DNA from: Chlorobiota bacterium
Lineage (GTDB): Bacteria > Bacteroidota > Bacteroidia > Bacteroidales > JAADGE01
Assembly (NCBI GenBank): GCA_013152535.1
Contig: JAADGE010000069.1
Span: forward strand, 1 to 57,697
Length of the DNA: 57,697 nucleotides
Direction of reading: 5' to 3'
The position numbers and the translations under genes are program-made. Below, piece by piece: positions 11,072 to 13,196 of the stretch (its first letter is position 1; each line of letters begins with the position of its first letter). The notes under the pieces are model-generated. The model made no database searches. It was not told where the DNA came from and worked only from the letters and a program-made list of their open reading frames with translations.

Positions 11072-11626
11072 ATGGCTTCATTTAAAAAAATTATAGGAAA
11101 ATCGTTTTTCAAAATTATAGGTTGGAAATTCGGGGGAGAATTGCCTGAAGTGTCGAAATATATATGTGTAGTGGCACCGCATACAAGTATTTGGGATATG
11201 ATATGGGGGAAAATGTATAATTGGGCAATGGGAATGGAACCCAAAATAATGGTAAAAAAAGAATTTTTCTTTTTCCCGATGGGATGGTTAATGCGTCGTT
11301 GGGGAGCAATTCCTATTAACAGGCAATATCCCGGCGGAATTGTAAAACAAATTGCTGATGAATTCAGAAAAGCCGATAACATGATTTTGGCAATAACTCC
11401 GGAAGGAACACGTGCACCAAATCCGAATTGGAAAACAGGTTTTTACAGAATTGCACAGGAAGCAAATGTCCCGGTTTATCTTACTTTTTCTGACTTTAAA
11501 TCAAAAACTGTCGGTTTTATCGGAGAATTTAAACTTACGGGTGATTTTGATAAAGATATAAAAGCCATTAAAGAAAAATACAGAGGAATGGAAGGGCTTC
11601 ATAAGGAGAAATTTGTGATTGAATAA
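11072..11626 (+). CDS. 1-acyl-glycerol-3-phosphate acyltransferase-like protein (PlsC family)
   Basis: This 184-residue protein has the two core motifs of the PlsC/LPLAT superfamily: HTSIWD (HX4D catalytic dyad, about residue 31-36) and PEGTR (about residue 108-112), with a hydrophobic stretch between. Family members move an acyl group from acyl-ACP/CoA to lysophosphatidate or related lipids at the inner membrane. The length is short compared with PlsC (about 240), matching the small Bacteroidota group often annotated as glycerol acyltransferase. It is 7 bases after the ligase-like gene, so probably the last gene of the polysaccharide transcript. Confidence 0.85.
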   Translation: MASFKKIIGKSFFKIIGWKFGGELPEVSKYICVVAPHTSIWDMIWGKMYNWAMGMEPKIMVKKEFFFFPMGWLMRRWGAIPINRQYPGGIVKQIADEFRKADNMILAITPEGTRAPNPNWKTGFYRIAQEANVPVYLTFSDFKSKTVGFIGEFKLTGDFDKDIKAIKEKYRGMEGLHKEKFVIE

Positions 11627-11634
11627 AGTTGCGA

Positions 11635-11722
11635 CACACAGATTCCTCAGATAACACAGATAAGATATTATAAATTAAAAATAATCTGTGCAATTTGTGT
11701 AATCCGTGTGAGAAAAATATTT
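11635..11722. repeat. Palindromic repeat unit A
   Basis: This 88-base unit starts CACACAGATT and ends AAAAATATTT. Its left arm (11635-11661) and right arm (about 11683-11710) are imperfect reverse complements, rich in CACAGAT / ATCTGTG, around an A/T loop, so the unit can fold into a long hairpin. It is followed directly by unit B. It is the first of two full and three partial or interrupted copies around the GxxExxY gene. Confidence 0.9.
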
Positions 11723-11811
11723 CACACAAATCTCACAGATACCACAGATACAATATTATAAATTAAAAATAATCTGTGCAATTTGCGTAATCCCTGTGAG
11801 GAAAAATATTT
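11723..11811. repeat. Palindromic repeat unit B
   Basis: This 89-base direct copy of unit A differs by scattered substitutions (for example TTTGCGTAATCCCTGTGAG in the right arm) and keeps the same CACAGAT...ATCTGTG inverted arms and the AAAAATATTT tail. It abuts unit A on the left and the half unit C on the right. Confidence 0.9.
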
Positions 11812-11840
11812 CACACAAATGTCTCAGATATCACAGATAA
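11812..11840. repeat. Half repeat unit C, left arm before the GxxExxY gene
   Basis: Only the left arm of the repeat is present (CACACAAATGTCTCAGATA followed by TCACAGATAA). Where units A and B continue into the A/T loop and right arm, this copy runs into AAAGGAATAATATG and the GxxExxY start codon. A degenerate unit tail (TGAGGAAATTATTT) follows that gene's stop at about 12236-12249, so the gene occupies the position of a unit's interior. Confidence 0.8.
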
Positions 11841-11851
11841 AAAGGAATAAT

Positions 11852-12232
11852 ATGAACGAAAATGAAATTTCATATAAAATAAGAGGAATTGTTTATGATA
11901 TATACAATAATCTCGGACCGGGTTTATTAGAATCTGTATATGAAGAAATATTGTATTACGAATTACAAAAAGCAGGGTTGAAAACAGAAAGACAAAAATC
12001 AATTTCCGTGATTTGGAAAGATATAAAAATGGATCATGGATTCAGAGCAGATTTGATTGTAGAAAATAAAATTATAATTGAAATAAAATCTGTTGAAACA
12101 TTAGCAAAAGTGCATTTTAAACAAATAGCAACTTATGTTAAACTGTATGGTTGTAAATTGGGTTTGTTGATAAATTTCAGTGAAAGAGATATTAATGAAG
12201 GCATTAAGAGGTATATTAACGGAACTATATAA
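11852..12232 (+). CDS. GxxExxY protein (PD-(D/E)XK nuclease-like)
   Basis: This protein of about 126 residues has the family-naming motif GPGLLESVYEEIL (G-x-x-E-x-x-Y) and then the nuclease-like core: HGFRADLIVENKIIIEIKSVE, with Asp and E-x-K in the PD-(D/E)XK arrangement, and a final QIATYVKLYGCKLGLLINF strand. I start it at the ATG at 11852 after AAAGGAATAAT. The frame is open back to 11783, but those 23 codons are translated repeat sequence and should not be included. The gene sits inside a family of palindromic repeats, with the left repeat arm upstream and a repeat tail downstream. Function in this family is not established; a repeat-associated nuclease is an inference. Confidence 0.88.
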   Translation: MNENEISYKIRGIVYDIYNNLGPGLLESVYEEILYYELQKAGLKTERQKSISVIWKDIKMDHGFRADLIVENKIIIEIKSVETLAKVHFKQIATYVKLYGCKLGLLINFSERDINEGIKRYINGTI

Positions 12233-12249
12233 AAATGAGGAAATTATTT

Positions 12250-12339
12250 CACACAGATGCCTCAGAGATAACACAGATAAGATATTATAAATTACAAAAA
12301 ATCTGTGCAATTCGTGTAATCCGTGTGAGAAAAATATTT
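12250..12339. repeat. Palindromic repeat unit D
   Basis: This is a full 90-base copy of the same repeat downstream of the GxxExxY gene, with CACACAGATGCCTCAGAGAT as the left arm start, the TAAGATATTATAAATTA loop and the ATCTGTGCAATTCGTGTAAT right arm, ending in AAAAATATTT. It has two extra bases in the left arm compared with unit A. Confidence 0.9.
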
Positions 12340-12394
12340 CACACAGATGCCTCAGATAACACAGATAAGATATTATGAATTAAAAAAAAATTGT
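12340..12394. repeat. Truncated repeat unit E
   Basis: The copy begins exactly at the end of unit D with the same left arm and TAAGATATTAT loop, but its right arm has decayed to AATTGTGGTCTG, after which unique sequence leads to the nitrilase gene. It marks the right edge of the repeat block. Confidence 0.75.
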
Positions 12395-12422
12395 GGTCTG
12401 AGCAGTAAAAAATTAAACAAAA

Positions 12423-13196
12423 ATGTACCTAAAAGTAACAATAATACAGTCTGATTTAGTTTGGGAAAATATTGAAGCTAATCTCAACAATTTTACCGAA
12501 AAAATTCAATTAATAAAAGAAAATACAGATTTAATTATTCTTCCGGAAATGTTTGCATCCGGTTTTTCTATGAATCCGAGTAAATTTTCTTCTGATCAGG
12601 AGAAAGTTATTCAAAAAATGAAAGAATTTTCCGTATTAAAAAATGCTGTTGTAACGGGAACGGTTATCACCGAAAAAAACGGTCAGTTTTTCAATACTTT
12701 AATTTGGATGACTCCTGACGGGACATATAAAACGTATAATAAAAGACATCTTTTTTCATTTGCCGGTGAAGACAAATTTTATTCACAAGGAAAAGACCAT
12801 TTGCTTGTTTCGTTGAAAGGGTGGAAAATTATGCCTTTGATATGTTACGATTTACGTTTTCCGGTTTGGAGCAGAAATACAAATAATTATGATTTACTCA
12901 TTTATGTTGCTAATTGGCCTGAACGAAGAAATGATGTATGGAAAACTTTGCTGAAAGCACGTGCTATAGAAAATCAATCTTATGTTATCGGTGTGAACAG
13001 GGTAGGGAATGACGGTAACGCTATTTACCATTCGGGAGATTCCGGTGTTTATGATGCAAAAGGAAATAAAATAAGCAAAACAAAAGCACACGAAGAAAGT
13101 ATTGAAACTTTGCTTTTAGATAAAGATAAACTGAATGCTTTCAGAGAAAAATTTCCCGTAGGAAAGGATGCGGATAATTTTAGAATTATTCATTAA
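12423..13196 (+). CDS. Nitrilase-superfamily omega-amidase (YafV-like)
   Basis: This 257-residue C-N hydrolase carries the full catalytic triad: Glu in LPEMFASGF, Lys in NKRHLFSFAGED and Cys in LICYDLRFPVWSR. The ANWPERR and KARAIENQ segments are typical of omega-amidases (YafV/Nit2 type), which hydrolyse alpha-ketoglutaramate or alpha-ketosuccinamate to the keto acid and ammonia. The gene stands alone on this strand, just after the repeat block, and its 3' end overlaps the convergent DUF5063 gene by 11 bases. No signal peptide is seen, so it is cytoplasmic. The YafV assignment comes from motif context, not an alignment. Confidence 0.9.
   Translation: MYLKVTIIQSDLVWENIEANLNNFTEKIQLIKENTDLIILPEMFASGFSMNPSKFSSDQEKVIQKMKEFSVLKNAVVTGTVITEKNGQFFNTLIWMTPDGTYKTYNKRHLFSFAGEDKFYSQGKDHLLVSLKGWKIMPLICYDLRFPVWSRNTNNYDLLIYVANWPERRNDVWKTLLKARAIENQSYVIGVNRVGNDGNAIYHSGDSGVYDAKGNKISKTKAHEESIETLLLDKDKLNAFREKFPVGKDADNFRIIH

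Follow-up and report, generated by a model that had tools for sequence, protein, structure and literature searches.

A GxxExxY nuclease-like gene within palindromes of iterated 7-base words: a possible minimal mobile element

REP and REPIN palindromes associate with RAYT proteins, which are transposases of the Y1 HUH type. A homing endonuclease gene encodes a protein that cuts a target lacking the gene, and the gene is copied into that target. The closest described system is the intervening sequence (IVS) of Coxiella burnetii. In the parts of PMC4990558 that treat it, the IVS is 428 bases long and has terminal inverted repeats, an S23p ORF in the loop, and heptamers in tandem immediately ahead of the start codon. 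The same parts recount older proposals that the IVS is a mobile element and that its ORF serves mobility.

The locus considered here lies in a window of 57,697 nucleotides (the whole stretch of DNA that was analysed), in an insertion between an acyltransferase-like ORF (11072-11626) and a nitrilase-like ORF (12423-13196), both named by eye. The insertion holds a gene of the GxxExxY family amid palindromic units (Table 1). The original prediction, made from the sequence, had described two full units and a half unit before the gene and a full and a partial unit after it, all of about 88 bases and in one orientation. It placed the gene in the loop of a unit, with the ATG following a left arm and a degenerate unit tail past the stop. 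The coordinates bear this picture out. Both before and after the gene, adjacent units share one orientation and recur every 88 to 90 bases; a gap of 13 bases separates the ATG at 11852 from the final word of half unit C, and the stop is at 12232. The gene's own right arm has decayed, so that the unit tail alone follows the stop. The 7-base words that make up the arms (CRCNNAK; see below) reach 53 per kb in the non-coding bases of the island against 2.7 per kb in the remaining window. One word of unit A, CTCAGAT, fits only as C.C..AT.

Folding had been suggested as a check, and it gave the RNA z-scores of Table 1 (calculated for B on 11721-11812, for D on 12249-12338 and for E on 12339-12422). 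The z-scores of the units as DNA are -3.3 for A, -2.7 for B, -1.3 for D and -0.8 for E, so D and E are not unusual in that form. An alternative ORF of 149 amino acids begins at TTG 11783 and reads into the repeat. ORF callers may start there, in which case the first 23 residues are translated repeat (11783-11851). False N-termini of this sort are likely in other GxxExxY annotations, and odd annotated N-termini may stem from ORFs reading into an arm.

Table 1. Features of the insertion, in coordinates of the window.
Feature	Position	Strand	Evidence or remark
Whole insertion	11627..12422	+	796 bases; short unit-free junctions in 6 relatives
Unit A, full palindromic unit	11633..11720	+	Repeat family; RNA fold z -5.4; word positions
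Unit A, left-arm words	CACAGAT 11637-11643, CTCAGAT 11646-11652, CACAGAT 11655-11661	+	
Unit A, right-arm words	11684-11690, 11693-11699, 11702-11708	minus	
Unit B, full palindromic unit	11721..11800	+	88-base spacing; RNA fold z -3.1; words
Unit C, left arm only, three words (end 11838)	11812..11840	+	Directly upstream of gene
GxxExxY gene, 126 aa, PD-(D/E)XK fold (predicted)	11852..12232	+	Pfam, TIGR, conserved columns, model
Tail of gene-bearing unit, degenerate, right-arm words lost	12233..12249	+	No minus-strand word
Unit D, full palindromic unit, three words per arm	12250..12327	+	RNA fold z -4.0; words
Unit E, three-word left arm, right arm lost	12340..12366	+	RNA fold z -2.0; words

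I propose that this is a locally amplified minimal mobile element, similar in build to an IVS, whose nuclease reads its own arms, and I give this reading a probability of about one half. The element, of about 0.5 kb, would have two arrays of 7-base words, the second inverted, on either side of a loop that holds a small nuclease gene. It would land in short intergenic gaps, more often co-directional ones, and would probably be transcribed from the host operon. The PD-(D/E)XK nuclease would recognise the CRCNNAK words that recur about once per helical turn in its own arms, the candidate substrate being double-stranded DNA, a cruciform or hairpin RNA. Cutting or nicking at the arms would then promote both the copying of the element and the local gain or conversion of units, and loss of the gene from an element would leave an empty hairpin.

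The window protein matches PF13366 of Pfam (E 5.9e-40) and TIGR04256 (E 1.5e-41), exceeding the curated cut-offs over the whole domain (136.7 bits against 22 and 141.4 bits against 35, respectively). Its presumed catalytic residues are invariant, both in an alignment of 16 rows (D63, E73 and K75 in the numbering of the first row) and in one of 60 rows (D67, E77 and K79). The predicted structure (pLDDT 94) has a PD-(D/E)XK fold, and the nearest structural match to the model is SSO0001 (4ic1; Z 9.9, rmsd 3.5 over 100 residues), which I take to be Cas4-like. The model also matches Hjc (1gef; rmsd 3.2 over 87 residues) with a Z of 7.2, and a Z under 8 can mean merely a common arrangement. The best match found by Foldseek has an E of 0.0022; I-Bth0305I, a PD-(D/E)XK homing nuclease, is a weak match at rank 39 (E 0.33). 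Profiles, the invariant D and E-x-K, and modelled fold agree with the assignment to a PD-(D/E)XK-like family that had been made from the sequence.

No match to the GxxExxY protein was found in the PDB by sequence, none to PF01797 (Y1/HUH transposase) in the window protein up to an E of 1, and none to GxxExxY among phages and viral contigs (queried with one protein). PADLOC gave no match and PHROGs weak ones only. No activity is known for a GxxExxY protein. The genes are common, present in 152 of the 296 genomes sampled across the phylum. As judged by dN/dS, which is 0.02 to 0.13 in 19 of 23 pairs (the other four were not computable, and dS is often above 1), the protein is under strong purifying selection.

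The inverted flanks are not peculiar to the window. Loci were scored by the best inverted match between upstream and downstream flank, with other ORFs of the same loci as controls. Among order-level relatives the median score is 36 against 22 (p 2.7e-10; 69 loci, 88 control ORFs). Seventy loci were analysed in this set and all were scored except L063, which has no downstream flank; short or sub-cut-off fragments and L088 had been left out. In public genomes the median is 33 against 17 (p 2.4e-24; 79 loci, 343 control ORFs), in a set that leans to one clade because the best 80 of 581 relatives were kept (L175 was dropped and six early-stop loci retained). This set is mainly from Bacteroidota, with single loci from Planctomycetota, Chloroflexota, Nitrospinota, Omnitrophota, Verrucomicrobiota and others. 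In a phylum-wide sample the median is 32 against 17 (p 6e-23; 121 control ORFs and all 88 loci, L322 having been left out beforehand as overlapping L285); the sample contains discovery records (L250=L190, L240=L201, L291=L229), and other loci in it are orthologous. The 95th percentile of the controls is exceeded by 57 of 79 loci in the public genomes and by 56 of 88 in the phylum-wide sample, so the arrangement described for the window recurs in relatives. Eight loci from a plasmid collection, read by eye, have inverted arms in three cases (Bernardetia, Bacteroides, Treponema), direct repeats in three (Fusobacteria, Persicobacter, Prevotella) and words upstream only in two (Gemmatirosa, Sphingomonas).

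Ordinary transcription terminators, or repeats arising by chance, might be suspected from the intergenic position and the hairpin form. That reading is rejected as hardly credible: scores lie above those of neighbouring controls in all three sets, and the arms consist of iterated words with a fixed rule and spacing. Two results from these sets weigh against my own proposal. Flanks paired across different loci have a median score of 24 and a 95th percentile of 36, and such pairs reach the median of true pairs in about 5% of cases, because the loci share words. Moreover, while a repeat or word signal above the 95th percentile of controls is present in 73 of the 88 phylum-wide loci, 15 have neither.

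What the loci share can be stated as a rule. The arms are mostly runs of two to four 7-base words fitting C[A/G]CNNA[G/T]. In the 149 loci of the discovery set, read in one frame, the commonest are CACAGAG, CGCAAAG, CACAAAG, CGCAGAG, CACAGAT, CACTAAT, CACGGAG, CACGAAG and others. The ACCATTAAG type is one arm type among the relatives, and arms outside the rule exist, for example the ACCATTAAGGCATTAAG type. The discovery set has 19.3 words per kb against 7.2 in the reversed control. Since the rule was spotted post hoc, after the data of these loci had been viewed, 88 further loci were tested. They have 21.2 words per kb, against 7.6 in reversed flanks and 6.4 around control ORFs, and 51 of the 88 exceed the control 95th percentile for words. 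This second set holds discovery records and orthologous loci, so the test was repeated under a very strict filter, removing every locus with any 300-base match to earlier loci. The 19 loci left of the 88 have 22.0 words per kb against 8.5 (p 1e-4), and in them the rule stands above all 400 random templates of equal degeneracy (the highest at 20.7). Words follow one another mostly at 8 to 11 bases, with a mode of 10, or about one word per helical turn.

Selection on the words themselves is best seen at a site shared by 13 loci, five from Flavobacteriaceae and eight from further genomes. A plain MAFFT alignment of the site, which is independent of any search pattern, yields C.C..AG as a consensus that recurs along the right arms and, less completely, along the left, the inner bases being free. 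Where positions vary, left and right arm scarcely retain exact pairing (p 0.06; 12 of the 13 loci, since L158, retained in the alignment, had a wrong left flank). Such weak upkeep of exact pairing counts against my proposal. That an old site keeps its words and barely its pairing favours recognition of words over hairpin form alone. An arm matches its own partner better than it matches arms of the same word at other loci (mean rank 0.76, p 2e-15; 131 loci), so inversion matters, at least at birth.

On a tree of 225 proteins, 150 of whose loci could be labelled with a clear word, the words change 68 times, against a mean of 98.8 and a least value of 91 after shuffling; the tree is built from few columns, with many unresolved forks, and near-copies add to the clustering. 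The last base of the word changes 9 times, against 26.1 when shuffled. Repeat sharing also increases with protein similarity in non-syntenic pairs across genomes (permutation p 0.002; 67 of 70 loci). By both measures the arm words co-vary with the protein. CACAGAG, CGCAAAG and CACAAAG are clearly clustered on the tree, but loci with CGCAGAG, CACGGAG and CACGAAG are not clearly so, and CGCAGAG not at all. These unclustered types tell against the proposal, as does the fact that the three clustered ones make up 88 of the 150 labelled loci. Within a locus the commonest NN accounts for 0.55 (120 loci) against 0.50 in the reversed control (47); being hardly more uniform than the control, the inner bases lower the odds of a code set by clade. 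A search for protein residues associated with the word yielded little or nothing, on too few independent contrasts, and this too stands on the debit side.

GxxExxY genes are not alone in occupying palindromes. A family-blind scan of 701 control ORFs found 20 with an inverted-flank score of 30 or more. Ten high scorers, comprising eight of the 20 and two scoring 29, were compared with Pfam: seven are S23p/IVP, two are Y1 transposases (one exactly at the cut-off) and one is GIY-YIG. The Y1 matches are a positive control of the scan. L176, also among the 20, is S23p-like by eye. The objection that other genes may occupy such interiors as often as GxxExxY genes is answered in part: nine of the 20 belong to small families (S23p/IVP, GIY-YIG or Y1), and 11 are various others, some of them near GxxExxY-type words.

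S23p/IVP genes (PF05635) situated outside rRNA in related genomes (L101-L130) also lie in palindromes of iterated words, such as TCTAATATCTAA, GTCAGAAGTCAGA and GGCAGTCGGCAGTC. Of 60 relatives, 45 have a match to the family, and 23 of the 29 loci read (of 30; L121 was left out) are above the threshold of the public-genome set. CRCNNAK is not enriched near these genes (2.2 against 4.0 reversed). Two gaps in a fatty-acid-oxidation-like operon hold GxxExxY elements in some relatives (L032, L060, L046) and S23p in others (L102, L106, L112, L101, L103, L105, L108, L109, L111); the fad, pur and purC-like gene names used in this work are given by eye. At L188:1003-1305 a GIY-YIG gene of 100 amino acids has strong inverted arms of different sequence.

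The window genome has three GxxExxY genes; each has its own palindromic units, and the arm sequences of the three differ. The window site was located in 12 of 14 genus genomes. Gene and units are present in three (G000, G003, G009), units but no gene in one (G010), a short junction without units in six (G008, G007, G004, G005, G012, G001) and an unrelated palindrome in G013; in G006 the site is unreadable at a contig end. Filled, gene-less and clean versions of one locus, for which a search had been advised, thus exist in 3, 1 and 6 genomes. The window gene has diverged among the three filled genomes about as much as its neighbour gene, so this copy is probably old and has probably been lost repeatedly. 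Such a history, like that of the 13-locus site, fits a settled gene equally well, which is a point against mobility. By eye, a unit is more like the others in its filled locus than like those at the orthologous position, a sign of local turnover. Ahead of a purC-like gene, GxxExxY elements occupy the same gap in two genus genomes (L026, L054) but differ in arm type. Degenerate units of the window type, without a GxxExxY gene, adjoin an ORF that is LOG-family-like by eye (L008; G000:C15:33023-33110).

Then there is the evidence of movement. Two contigs of one genome bin (G032) carry copies of an element, L079 and L082, that are 91% alike over 481 bases. The likeness is bounded by the outer ends of the arms, and the flanks are unrelated. 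Comparable pairs exist between genomes (L045/L080 and L027/L054). As judged by such comparisons, the gene and its arms move as one unit. Contamination of G032 is given as 3%, so one contig may be foreign. No target duplication was visible by eye at L079 or L082, where no close empty site offered a comparison, and this counts against the proposal. Both copies have a small hairpin (CCTGACTGCCATTAGGCAGG) just past the stop codon, before the right arm.

An alternative view is that of a free-standing homing nuclease, which would cut gene-less units, have its gene copied into the loop by repair, and leave split-loop units immune. A gene in the loop of a unit amid empty units is what such a nuclease would produce, and the weak match to I-Bth0305I and the one GIY-YIG gene likewise set between inverted arms are in keeping with it. 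But L079 and L082 moved with their arms, into unrelated flanks, and many GxxExxY loci (by eye) have a single arm pair with no empty unit adjoining. I consider homing improbable.

It is easier to imagine a settled regulatory module, in which the protein binds words in its own mRNA or operator and controls itself or the host operon, the arms being kept for regulation and movement being rare and accidental. Strong purifying selection on the protein, and on the words at an old, vertically kept site where pairing is barely maintained, is what one would expect of it. So is an excess of co-directional neighbours: neighbours on both sides are co-directional at 142 of 193 GxxExxY loci against 62 of 118 controls (p 2e-4; 193 of 238 loci were used in the analysis of direction and spacing), an excess equally in line with transcription of a mobile element from the host operon. 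Regulation does not so easily explain the occurrence of one element at unrelated sites, including two within a single bin, nor the patchy filling of orthologous gaps, the extra arrays of gene-less units, and arms that flank both sides of the gene. I hold this view to be unlikely, though the likeliest of the rivals.

The proposed mobile element also has to account for units that stand apart from the gene. With up to one mismatch allowed, the ACCATTAAGGCATTAAG unit occurs at 15 sites, in five of the 14 genus genomes. Twelve of these sites belong to the three genomes with its gene clade, and 11 of the twelve share a contig with the gene and lie no more than about 6 kb from it, in the gaps of a gene cluster, presumably of purine genes. 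The pattern CACAGA-CACAGA has 77 matches, 63 of them in three genomes with a gene of the cognate word and 14 in three other genomes; eight genomes have none, and a backward control gave none. Units of either kind are thus concentrated in genomes with the matching gene, so this check, named with the original prediction, does not refute it. In G009, however, most pattern matches (38 of 47) lie at a distance from GxxExxY genes. Sixteen places with solo CACAGA hairpins were read there (C6, C7 and C25 were left out), and in nine the hairpin lies close to the middle of a MITE that is about 190 bases long and has the TIR TTGAATTAGGC. The MITE has ten copies, not all complete (L353, L358-L360, L362, L364-L367 in G009; L368 in G013). 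Hairpins can evidently spread by routes that do not involve the nuclease, and dispersal through the genome by its action was set aside as the main account.

Thus of the original prediction one part has stood better than another. That gene and repeats form one evolutionary unit is supported by the recurrence of the arrangement among the majority of GxxExxY genes examined, by words that follow the protein tree and by very similar copies at unrelated sites. Self-dispersal in the manner of REP repeats is not established, given the MITE copies in G009 and a search of the window genome (40 of 73 first-look candidates scored) that found no other window-type unit with E below 1e-3. One palindrome, of the CACAGATTCACAGAT type, encloses a gene-free loop of roughly 95 bases (L355). 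Its genome also carries a GxxExxY gene whose arms match (L080), and the palindrome resembles an element that has lost its gene.

Perhaps the gene is only a passive guest, the palindromes spreading otherwise (by MITEs or replication slippage) and the gene persisting in gaps that tolerate hairpins. The hairpins carried within MITEs, the tandem amplification of units, and the 14 CACAGA matches in genomes without a cognate-word gene would find a ready explanation. It is too much to expect of a guest, however, that the words should follow its protein tree, that its word rule should be absent from S23p flanks, and that unit sites should be concentrated in genomes with the cognate gene clade. I regard this account, too, as improbable.

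Returning to the element that reads its own arms, comparison of genomes establishes its architecture and generality, the word rule, the way words and protein vary together, the constraint on both, the movement of gene and arms as a unit, and the filled, gene-less and clean sites. From these I infer that the protein binds the words and cuts, and that cutting drives copying. Build and history most likely fit a small selfish or semi-selfish unit.

Searches of the open-licence papers in PubMed Central (subscription papers and preprints lie outside) yielded none on the role of GxxExxY proteins, none on PDDEXK_3, and no description of a nuclease set in a palindrome of words. GxxExxY is mentioned in passing in the relevant parts of PMC8934634 and PMC12085832, and TIGR04256, PF13366 or a related name in those of PMC9756366; a figure legend on CRISPR adaptation modules in PMC10910872 names the 23S rRNA IVP. 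A broader idea can be put forward tentatively, as one I would sooner doubt than assert: that GxxExxY proteins are the sequence-reading nucleases of widespread, undescribed minimal mobile elements, with a word code whose variable bases are set by protein clade, and that S23p and some GIY-YIG genes underlie sister classes built on different words. If true, there exists a large natural library of small nucleases, each stored beside its own binding sites. The arms would supply a GxxExxY protein with a word rule, with internal controls in the words of other clades, and with a candidate for its substrate; a common family would gain a testable job, and the rRNA intervening sequences would be linked to intergenic elements of the same build.

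How, then, does the element compare with what has been described? The PD-(D/E)XK fold predicted for the GxxExxY protein is shared with the Cas4-like SSO0001, with archaeal Holliday junction resolvases and with I-Bth0305I, but no PDB entry matches by sequence. The GIY-YIG gene beside L188 is also a small nuclease gene between inverted arms, but it is a single case, with another nuclease fold and another arm sequence. As with REP/REPIN and RAYT, a small gene is flanked by its own palindromes, and gene-less palindromes exist. Unlike RAYT, the protein is PD-(D/E)XK by its predicted fold and not Y1/HUH, and the arms are iterated 7-base words. As for the many dispersed gene-less palindromes of REP/RAYT, the window genome has no further unit of the window type at E below 1e-3, and in G009 most matches are far from the gene, with nine of the 16 places read lying within a MITE. 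RNase III excision is a feature of the IVS, and no such step is known for the GxxExxY element, which lies between protein-coding ORFs and not in a 23S rRNA helix, and which encodes a PF13366 nuclease in place of S23p (PF05635). In overall build, the element is nonetheless like the IVS: compact, with terminal inverted repeats whose loop holds a small ORF, as the scores of 57 of 79 and 56 of 88 relatives indicate.
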